In this document: in pieces, positions 41,605 through 44,801 of the stretch
Layout of the letters: each line of letters starts with the position of its first letter
Numbering within the stretch: position 1 is the stretch's first letter
Source of the DNA: Streptantibioticus rubrisoli
GTDB lineage: Bacteria; Actinomycetota; Actinomycetes; Streptomycetales; Streptomycetaceae
Length of the DNA stretch: 64,000 nt
Reading direction: 5' to 3'
NCBI RefSeq assembly: GCF_024436055.1
Contig: NZ_JANFNH010000016.1
Location: 1 to 64,000, forward strand
Notes under the pieces: model-generated
What the model was told of the DNA's origin: nothing
What the model saw: only the letters and a program-made list of their open reading frames with translations
Databases searched by the model: none
Program-made: the position numbers and the translations under genes

Positions 41605-42309
41605 TCAACCCACCGTGGCCGCGACCAGCGCCCCCAGCACGCGAGAGTCGTCCGACATCTCCGGATGCCACTGCACGCCCAGCACGAAGGGGCCGCCGGG
41701 GAGTTCCACCGCCTCCACCGTGCCGTCGCAGGCGGCGTGCGCGCTGGCGATCAGCGCGCCGCCCAGGCGGCCCACCGCCTGGTGGTGGTACGTCGGCACG
41801 TCCACTGGCTCCGGGACGGCGGCGGCCAGCCGGGTTCCGGCCACCGGGACGACCCGGTGGCTGCCGAACACGCCCGCCACCTCGGCGTGGCCCGCGTGCC
41901 CGACCTCGTCGGGCAGGTGCTGCACCAGCGTGCCGCCCAACGCGACATTGAGCAGTTGCATGCCCCGGCAGATGCCGAGCAGTGGGGTTCCGGCGCCCAA
42001 CGCGGCCTCGATCAGGGCCAGTTCCCACGCGTCCCGCTCCACCGCGGGCGGCCCCGTCCGCGGATCCCGCTCGGCTCCGTAGCGCTGCGGATCGACGTCC
42101 TCGCCGCCCGCGATCACCAGGCCGTCCAGCCGTTCCACGGCTTCCTTGGCCGCCGCCGGGTCATCCGGCGGCAGCATCACCGCCAGCGCCCCGGCCGCCT
42201 GCACGATGCGCGGATAACTGGCGGGCAGCAGTGCCGCGGGCAGCTGCCACACCCGGTAGCGCGCCGAGGACTCCCAGTACGTGCTGATGCCGATCAGTGG
42301 CCGTCCCAC
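41605..42309 (-). CDS. Class I glutamine amidotransferase (PuuD-like gamma-glutamyl hydrolase)
   Basis: A 234-residue peptidase C26 enzyme that hydrolyses gamma-glutamyl amides. The nucleophile Cys lies in LLGICRGMQLLNVALGG (about residue 108), and the His-Glu dyad in VLGVQWHPE (about 213-217); an oxyanion region AGGEDVDPQRYG is also conserved. In the Puu-type route it would free the amine-derived acid after a gamma-glutamyl intermediate is oxidised. GTG 42309 has GGAGG six bases upstream and is preferred to an upstream ATG at 42399. It appears intact, although the ligase that would make its substrate, at 43190, is broken. Confidence 0.9.
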   Translation of the reverse strand: MGRPLIGISTYWESSARYRVWQLPAALLPASYPRIVQAAGALAVMLPPDDPAAAKEAVERLDGLVIAGGEDVDPQRYGAERDPRTGPPAVERDAWELALIEAALGAGTPLLGICRGMQLLNVALGGTLVQHLPDEVGHAGHAEVAGVFGSHRVVPVAGTRLAAAVPEPVDVPTYHHQAVGRLGGALIASAHAACDGTVEAVELPGGPFVLGVQWHPEMSDDSRVLGALVAATVG

Positions 42310-42358: not shown

Positions 42359-43108
42359 TCAACTGAGGAACCCGCGCAAAAGTGCCGCGGTGCCCGCACA
42401 GTGCTCGCGCATCACCTCGCGCGCTCCGTCGGCATCTCCCTCCAGGATCGCCTCAAGGAGCGCCGCGTGCTGGGTCTGCGAGTGTTCGAGGTTGCGCACC
42501 AGCAGCGGGATGCGGTCCAGCAGGTCGTTGACCCGCGCCCGGGTCCCGGCGTACGCGGCGGCCAGCGACGGCGAACCCGACAACTCGGCCAGCGTCAGGT
42601 GCAGCCGGGTGTCCAGCCTGCGGTAGTCGGCGAGCGGCGCGTCGTTCGTCGCCGCCGCAGCCGCCCGCAGCCGCTCGCGCTGCTCCTCGTCCAACTCCCG
42701 TGCCGCGCACAGCTCCGCGGCCCCCACTTCCAGCACTTCGCGGAACCGCAGCACGTCGTCCACGTCGACATCCGCCACCTCGGGCGCGGTGCCGGACGCC
42801 GTGCTGGCCAGGTCGCCCGCGCGGTAGCGCACGAACGTTCCGCCGTACCGGCCGCGTCTGCTCTCCACCAGGCCCTGCTCCTGGAGCACCTTGAGCACCT
42901 CGCGCAAGGTCACCCGGCTGATCCGCAGCCGGTCCGCCAACTCCCGCTCCGACGGCAGTCGTTCGCCCTACGGCACCAGGCCGAGCCGCAGTACCTGGAG
43001 TATCTGCTCCAGCGCCTCCTCGAAGCCGCTGCCCGCCCGTACCGGACGCAGCACGGGGGAGAGCCGGTCGGTCTCCCGTGCCCGGCCGCCCTGCGCGGAG
43101 CCGCTCAT
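42359..43108 (-). pseudogene. GntR/FadR-family regulator interrupted by an in-frame TAG
   Basis: The frame from ATG 43108 to the stop at 42359 spans exactly 250 codons and reads as a FadR-type regulator, except that codon 47 is TAG (42970-42968). Before it stands SGFEEALEQILQVLRLGLVP and after it GERLPSERELADRLRISRVTLREVLKVLQEQGLVESRRGRYGGTFVR, the two halves of a single winged helix. The C-terminal FCD domain (about 95-240) with its metal-binding His residues is intact. An internal ATG at 42940 would give a protein lacking half the DNA-binding domain. A single change such as TAC to TAG explains it; a sequencing error or natural readthrough cannot be excluded. Confidence 0.8.
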
Positions 43109-43134
43109 CCGTCCTCCCGAAAGCCCTTACCAAT

Positions 43135-43142
43135 CAATGGTT
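43135..43142. promoter_or_regulatory. CAATGGTT motif, copy 2, between the GntR and glutamine-synthetase genes
   Basis: The second copy of the 8-mer, flanked by ACCAAT on its left, lies in the 81-base divergent region. It is probably the operator of the (now interrupted) GntR regulator. Confidence 0.4.
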
Positions 43143-43189
43143 CCCACGCATACCTTAGGGCTCCGGTCCACTGACAGGAGGCCCACCTC

Positions 43190-43927
43190 GTGGCAGACCG
43201 CACACCGCCACTCACCGTGCCCGAGCTGCGGCGGCTGGTCGACACCGGCACCGTCGACACCGTCGTCCTCGCCTTCACCGACATGCAGGGGCGCCTGCAG
43301 GGCAAGCGCTTCGCGGCGCCCTTCTTCCTGGACGAGGTGCTGGAGCACGGCACCGAGGGCTGCAACTACCTGCTCGCCGTGGACGCCGAGATGAACACGG
43401 TGAACGGTTACGCCATGTCCTCGTGGGAGCACGGCTACGGTGACTTCGCGATGCAAGCCGACCCGGCCACACTGCGGCACACCCCCTGGAACGAGGGCAC
43501 CGCACCGCTCATCGCCGACCTCGCCTGGCACGACGGTTCACCCGTCGCCGCCTCCCCGCGGCAGATCCTGCGCCGCCAGCGCGACCGTCTCGCCGAACGC
43601 GGCTGGTCCGCCCTCGTGGGCACCGAGTTGGAGTTCATGGTGTTCAACGACACCTACGAGGACGCCTGGAACCGCGGCTACCGGCAGATGCACCCGGCCA
43701 ACCAGTACAACGTCGACTACTCGGTGCTCGGCACCGGCCGGGTCGAACCGCTGCTGCGCCGCATCCGCAACGAGATGGGCGCCGCCGGGATGACCGTGGA
43801 GTCCGCCAAGGGCGAGTGCAACCTCGGCCAGCACGAGATCGCGTTCCGCTACGACGAGGCGCTCACCACCTGCGACCAGCACGTCATCTACAAGACCGGC
43901 GCCAAGGAGATCGCCGCCCAGGAGGGG
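43190..43927 (+). pseudogene. glnA4: Truncated glutamine-synthetase-like gene (gamma-glutamyl-amine ligase, GlnA4 type)
   Basis: Codons 1-246 read as the N-terminal half of a GlnA4/GlnA3-type ligase that joins glutamate to ethanolamine or polyamines: VLAFTDMQGRLQGKRFAAPFFLDEVL, the metal-binding GTELEFMVF (about residues 144-152), YNVDYSVLG and ESAKGECNLGQHEIAF with CDQHVIYKTGAKEIAAQEG. Homology stops at Gly246 (43927); the family is about 450 residues, so the ATP-binding and C-terminal catalytic half is gone. The DNA then continues as the end of an aldehyde dehydrogenase gene in another frame. The open frame runs on to 44725 but is out of frame and meaningless. GTG 43190 follows AGGAGG. The name rests on context and synteny recalled from S. 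coelicolor. Confidence 0.85.
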
Positions 43928-44004
43928 CGGGCGCTCACATCGGCCCCGGCGCGCTCGCCGCCTTCACCGAGACCGAGAACGTCTTCATCAGCACGGAGGA
44001 ATGA
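43928..44004 (+). pseudogene. 3' remnant of an aldehyde dehydrogenase gene
   Basis: In the frame +2 relative to the upstream gene, 43936-44004 encodes HIGPGALAAFTETENVFISTEE and a stop, the characteristic C-terminus of an NAD-dependent aldehyde dehydrogenase (GxxxLxxFTETKNVF pattern). All of the remaining roughly 450 codons are missing. The TGA overlaps the SDR start as ATGA (44001-44004), so the original order was ligase, aldehyde dehydrogenase, SDR in one operon, and a deletion of around 2 kb joined the first to the end of the second. Confidence 0.75.
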
Positions 44005-44801
44005 CACCAGTGACCGCACAGACCGACGAAGTCATCTGCCGCCGCCTGCCGGGCCGAACCGCCGTCGTCACCGGCGCGGGCAGCGGCATCGGCCTGGCGA
44101 CCGCCCGCCGTCTCGCCTCCGAGGGCGCCAACGTGGTGTGCGCCGACATCGACCAGGCGGCGGGGGAGGCCGCCGCCGCCCAGACCGGCGGCTCCTACCT
44201 CAAGGTCGACGTCACCGACGCCGACCAGGTGAAGGAGTTGTTCCGGACCGCGTACGACATCTACGGCTCCGTGGACATCGCGTTCAACAACGCCGGGATC
44301 TCGCCGCCCGACGACGATTCCATCCTGACCACCGGGATCGACGCCTGGCGCCGGGTCCAGGAGGTCAACCTCACCTCCGTCTACCTGTGCTGCAAGGCGG
44401 CGCTGCCCTACATGCAGCGACAGGGCAAGGGCTCGATCATCAACACCGCGAGTTTCGTCGCCGTGATGGGCGCCGCGACCTCGCAGATCTCCTACACCGC
44501 CTCCAAGGGCGGGGTGTTGGCGATGTCCCGGGAACTGGGCGTGCGGTTCGCCCGGGAGGGCATCCGGGTCAACGCGCTGTGCCCGGGCCCGGTCAACACC
44601 CCGCTGCTGCGCGAGCTGTTCGCCAAGGACCCGGAGCGCGCCGCGCGGCGCCTGGTGCATATCCCGCTCGGGCGCTTCGCCGAGGCGGAGGAGATCGCCG
44701 CCGCGGTGGCGTTCCTGGCGAGTGATGACTCGTCGTTCATCACGGGTTCGGAGTTCCTGGTCGACGGCGGCATCGCGGGGGCGTACGTCACGCCCCTGTA
44801 G
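44001..44801 (+). CDS. Short-chain dehydrogenase/reductase
   Basis: A 266-residue NAD(P)-dependent SDR oxidoreductase. Cofactor motif TGAGSGIG (about residues 24-31), the Asp in CADID favouring NAD, NNAG (about 97-100), catalytic Ser and YxxxK in SQISYTASKGG (about 156-166), and PGPVNTP. ATG 44001 overlaps the aldehyde dehydrogenase stop and has GGAGG upstream; GTG 44010 is the alternative. It was the distal gene of the amine-degradation operon and remains intact, with the upstream promoter still in place, so it may now be expressed as part of a truncated transcript. Confidence 0.93.
   Translation: MTPVTAQTDEVICRRLPGRTAVVTGAGSGIGLATARRLASEGANVVCADIDQAAGEAAAAQTGGSYLKVDVTDADQVKELFRTAYDIYGSVDIAFNNAGISPPDDDSILTTGIDAWRRVQEVNLTSVYLCCKAALPYMQRQGKGSIINTASFVAVMGAATSQISYTASKGGVLAMSRELGVRFAREGIRVNALCPGPVNTPLLRELFAKDPERAARRLVHIPLGRFAEAEEIAAAVAFLASDDSSFITGSEFLVDGGIAGAYVTPL

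Follow-up and report, generated by a model that had tools for sequence, protein, structure and literature searches.

A probable, recent-looking pseudogene of an EpuRI-type repressor in Streptantibioticus rubrisoli, with a complete second cluster elsewhere in the genome

The window analysed here is a stretch of 64,000 nucleotides from Streptantibioticus rubrisoli (assembly GCF_024436055.1, contig NZ_JANFNH010000016.1, positions 1 to 64,000 of the forward strand). On its reverse strand lies a frame of 250 codons that runs from ATG to a final stop and is interrupted by one internal TAG, at codon 47 (Table 1). The earlier sequence-only reading had described this TAG as splitting the frame between LGLVP and GERLPSERELA, which the translation bears out. 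With the stop read as X, the product matches the GntR model over residues 31-93 (PF00392, 50.4 bits against a curated cut-off of 27) and the FCD model over residues 118-237 (PF07729, 74.7 bits, cut-off 24.3), and thus has the N-terminal GntR winged helix and C-terminal FCD domain of the FadR-type members of the GntR superfamily. The frame is taken to be a real gene because both matches exceed their cut-offs and because the orthologue of a congener (G001) is open, 92% identical and set in the same gene order. The stop sits 16 residues inside the GntR match, so translation would halt before most of the DNA-binding domain.

Judged from gene order, the gene corresponds to EpuRI (SCO1614), known from Streptomyces coelicolor, as it adjoins and diverges from glnA4 in a cluster of the SCO1611-SCO1615 type. 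Two reports describe EpuRI as a repressor of glnA4, better growth on ethanolamine in an epuRI mutant, and a Streptomyces ethanolamine cluster comprising SCO1610-SCO1615 (PMC6529630, PMC8998196). The arrangement resembles that of the window, with the regulator divergent from glnA4 and accompanied by amidotransferase, aldehyde dehydrogenase (ALDH) and SDR genes, and the window frame has the GntR and FCD domains. The SCO1614 primers given there, compared by eye, read TDRLAP... and ...LLRGFL and resemble the ends of the window epuRI family. The window copy differs from EpuRI of S. coelicolor in carrying a stop at codon 47 and in having lost much of its glnA4/ALDH partner region.

Table 1. Features of the native locus in the window and of the second cluster on contig C10 (positions of the latter on L038)
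Feature	Position	Strand	Basis
Peptidase C26 / glutamine amidotransferase, SCO1615/orf5 type, open frame	41605..42309	-	frames, G001, Pfam
epuRI, probable pseudogene (SCO1614-type GntR/FCD repressor; 250 codons, one internal TAG)	42359..43108	-	translation, orthologues, Pfam
Possible restart ORF, 193 aa, front of winged helix missing, FCD kept	42359..42940	-	start use inferred
In-frame TAG, codon 47 (TAC, Tyr, in near relatives)	42968..42970	-	translation, orthologue codons
Predicted glnA4 promoter/operator	43126..43157	+	CTTACCAA box, CCA-N5-TGG 43130-43140, TACCTTA 43151-43157
glnA4 5' remnant, gamma-glutamylethanolamide synthetase type by gene order	43190..43938	+	G001 comparison, Pfam
Deletion junction; 1939 bases of G001 missing	43938..43940	+	comparison with G001
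ALDH gene (SCO1612 type), last codons, out of glnA4 frame	43940..44004	+	frames, G001 comparison
SDR dehydrogenase, SCO1611/orf2 type, open frame	44001..44801	+	frames, G001, Pfam
C10 orf5	L038 6605-7348	-	open frame
C10 permease, amino-acid-permease family	L038 7402-8955	-	open frame
C10 epuRI	L038 9100-9879	-	open frame
C10 glnA4	L038 9914-11305	+	open frame
C10 ALDH	L038 11315-12691	+	open frame
C10 SDR, 267 aa	L038 12697-13500	+	open frame

Among the loci and genomes compared, the stop is seen in the window copy alone. A comparison of codon 47 across orthologues, proposed in the sequence-only reading, found no stop in any of 80 named loci (the 80 best of 416 relatives, three of them belonging to genomes G001, G009 and G017), where the residue is Gly in 54, Gln in 7, Asp in 6, Ala in 5, Tyr in 3, Pro in 2 and Val, His and Ser in 1 each. 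The codon could additionally be read in 8 of 31 loci from a genome search. Six near relatives (G001, G002, G018, G028, S. humicola and Streptomyces sp. ICBB 8177) have TAC, and a second copy in the same genome, on contig C10, also has Tyr at this position. TAC and TAG are one base change apart, and a single C-to-G change would have turned the Tyr-47 codon into the stop. An orthologue (E<=1e-75) was found in 135 of 249 family genomes, which were drawn from a larger family with the best 11 candidates scored per genome, and the window hit is the only one with an internal stop. As in a pseudogene, the frame is therefore broken where its orthologues stay open. A distant regulator in G056, 32% identical, likewise has a TAG in its match.

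The neighbouring enzyme genes carry a separate lesion. Relative to G001, a deletion of 1939 bases has removed the 3' portion of glnA4 and almost the entire ALDH gene, leaving a glnA4 remnant whose catalytic domain is truncated and matches Gln-synt_C over positions 2-132 of 344. The part missing from the window is present in the second congener, G002, and in the C10 copy. The earlier claim of two independent lesions in one amine-utilisation locus is thus upheld by the TAG and the deletion. The gap between orf5 and epuRI is only 49 bases, so the native locus has no permease gene between them.

Relaxed selection had also been proposed for this locus, and here the two genes part company. In epuRI, dN/dS is 0.178 between the window and G001 and 0.176 between G001 and G002. 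With the stop left out, replacement and silent changes number 9:24 on the window branch against 4:13 on its sister (p=1.0); the counts become 10:24 against 4:13 when the stop is included (p=0.75) and 13:21 against 4:12 under any-of-six outgroup polarisation (p=0.52). Outside codon 47, neither dN/dS nor the branch counts reveal a loss of constraint, and the stop is the sole sign of relaxed selection on epuRI. In the glnA4 remnant, by contrast, the proposal finds some support, with 9:6 on the window branch against 3:20 on its sister (Fisher p=0.004), the sister having more silent changes; the looser any-of-six polarisation gives 9:5 against 4:10 (p=0.13). Since epuRI has no replacement excess besides the stop, its loss looks recent, and the difference between the genes weakly suggests that the enzymes decayed first and the repressor later. 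At individual sites of the alignment, the window carries four replacements (I30V, D80N, R105H and L139R) at positions in which 94-100% of the other rows agree with G001; G001 has one replacement, at a site where 99% are like the window.

Unchanged constraint could also mean that the TAG is decoded and full-length EpuRI is still made, and the many residues tolerated at position 47 among orthologues would suit such readthrough. However, none of the 65 tRNA hits in the genome has a CTA anticodon: 62 have an overlapping ARAGORN call, none of them CTA, and for the remaining three, inspection of the Rfam alignments by eye gives UCC, CCC and CCG. The single match to the pyrrolysyl-tRNA synthetase model scores 20.6 bits against a cut-off of 178.15, which one of 14 control genomes exceeds. 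Together with the lack of a stop in the 80 named loci, these genome searches lend no support to suppression, which the sequence-only reading had offered as an alternative, and readthrough is regarded as highly improbable; a recent stop explains the unchanged constraint equally well.

A different way of keeping the frame in use would be a restart at TTG 42940, preceded by GGAG at six bases. The resulting product of 193 residues would keep the FCD domain and might act as partner or inhibitor of the EpuRI encoded on C10, a relic of the old repressor tuning the newer cluster; if so, the stop at codon 47 does not simply kill the gene. The missing replacement excess agrees with this idea, but a recent stop accounts for the constraint equally well, the fragment has lost the front of its winged helix, and both GGAG and TTG belong to the ordinary coding sequence shared by the family. 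Such a product is a very distant prospect, albeit one compatible with a native cluster decaying beside a second copy.

That second copy lies on contig C10 of the same genome, where an EpuRI 77% identical to that of the window stands in a block of six genes, all with open frames. The C10 genes are named from their order; the ligase, ALDH and permease score below the cut-offs of their NCBIfam models. Its set of orf5, permease, regulator, glnA4, ALDH and SDR in one block resembles the ethanolamine clusters with a putative permease of other Streptomyces (PMC6529630), from which C10 differs in coexisting with a decayed native cluster. The genome of the window (G000) is the only one with two epuRI orthologues among the 135 with any, of 249 searched, under a limit of E<=1e-75 that leaves out more distant copies such as one in G002. 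At the same limit the congeners G001 and G002, the two other genomes of the genus that were compared, have one orthologue each, so that the second copy is absent from both close relatives, as looked for in a xenologous cluster. The coincidence of second copy and stop in G000 is a single event and no trend. The more distant EpuRI-like regulator of G002 (C88:110879-113273) is 53% identical to that of the window, and its gene adjoins a permease gene whose DNA is 81% identical to the C10 permease region.

The second copy bears on whether the stop is real. In a draft of 103 contigs, a sequencing or assembly error could have turned a sense codon into the TAG, in which case the repressor would be intact and only the glnA4/ALDH deletion real, and the normal constraint in the frame apart from the stop would be as expected. 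Such an error would, however, have had to strike by coincidence the one genome with two copies, among the 135 with an orthologue, and to do so beside an independent deletion; it is judged improbable. The window epuRI is probably a real pseudogene that looks recent and derives from a repressor of a known kind; it is ordinary in itself and has a probable cause.

The descent of the C10 copy differs from that of the resident one. In the joint tree it falls outside the clade of the window, G001 and G002 (support 100), and AU tests, whose groups were named after earlier trees had been viewed, reject the window and C10 copies as sisters for both epuRI (p=3.1e-5) and glnA4 (p=0.00125). A recent duplication within the genome is thereby rejected. 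The joint tree and the AU tests thus have the second copy branching away from the resident, as in a xenologous cluster. For epuRI, the tests reject a placement of C10 with the genus (p=0.000143), which glnA4 weakly favours (support 58/62.7), and do not reject one with a wider nine-row set (p=0.384). Given this disagreement between the two genes, the C10 cluster may be a mosaic.

The surroundings of the cluster match the congeners in patches. Neither G001 nor G002 gives a match to its left flank (L038:1-6500); within this flank, L038 78-3680 holds a frame of 1200 residues with a DUF6443 match. The right flank matches in scattered pieces of up to 1.8 kb (79%, in G001), and three further 8-kb stretches of C10 are similarly patchy, with matches such as 2.8 kb (87%) and 1.3 kb (88%) in G001 and 0.36 kb (94%) in G002. 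To the right of the cluster, L038 19709-19901 and L200 1-156 and 1609-1970 have many matches in G002 and look like repeated modules. Four stretches of C10 have a G+C fraction of 0.675-0.708, the window one of 0.686-0.723, and contamination of the draft assembly is listed as 2. No donor was found for the cluster, whose flanks, compared with G001 and G002, match only patchily. The simplest reading of the trees and of the absence in two congeners is a gain by transfer, most likely from another Streptomyces-like lineage, which would have brought a permease absent from the native locus. With C10 only patchily like G001 and G002, the transfer may have been into the chromosome, or C10 may be a plasmid or a foreign contig; the copy may also be an ancient paralogue that other genomes have lost.

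That a resident gene may become a pseudogene once a xenologous copy has been gained is a general concept, and the present case resembles such replacement in combining a second copy of different descent with lesions in the resident one, the transfer here being deduced from trees and absence in two congeners. Literature-search titles and abstract openings held no account of this case. In the explanation that we hold to be likely, epuRI is recently dead and redundancy from the C10 cluster allowed the native cluster to decay. The C10 cluster would do the work, leaving the native one free to degenerate; the deletion in glnA4 and ALDH would probably have come first, after which the locus had no ligase for the repressor to act on, and the stop in epuRI would have followed. 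Native ethanolamine use could instead have been lost for other reasons, with the second cluster a coincidence. A deletion and a stop arising in that way would look identical, and the function of the C10 cluster is itself predicted. Against such a coincidence, all six C10 genes have open frames and, among the 135 genomes, a second copy occurs only in the one with the stop, so that loss unrelated to redundancy seems quite improbable. The locus offers a small, clear candidate example of a native metabolic cluster that degenerates while a complete second copy, different in descent and with a permease besides, is present, and of a proposed order of loss from enzymes to repressor. It also illustrates how a single window can suggest the loss of a pathway although a whole copy sits elsewhere in the genome.

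The intact EpuRI of C10 may still act in trans on the promoter before the dead genes, as the window frame shares the segment SRVTLREVLKVLQ unchanged with G001 and C10, and the C10 protein could on this ground act on both loci. The layout of that promoter is nearly fixed. Among 88 epuRI-glnA4 intergenic extracts (82 of them distinct, 14 shorter than 75 bases), CTTCCCAA occurs in 80 and TACCTTA in 87, and the boxes CTT[C/A]CCAA and TACCTTA stand 25 bases apart in all 81 extracts that hold both. The palindrome CCA-N5-TGG, present in the window, C10 and G001, is found in 68 of the 88; 300 single-base shuffles, which ignore relatedness, averaged 3.2 and reached at most 9. Five near relatives that are not members of the genus (G007, G009, G017, G018 and G028) lack it, which weakens it as a strict operator. 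The layout before glnA4 is put forward as a candidate EpuRI operator.

The CTTACCAA box of the window (43126-43133) is unique among the 88 extracts; CTTCCCAA is otherwise missing from G018, which has CTTCACAA, and from six extracts, all of them short. The variant box is possibly a third change in the dead locus, at the level of its predicted promoter.
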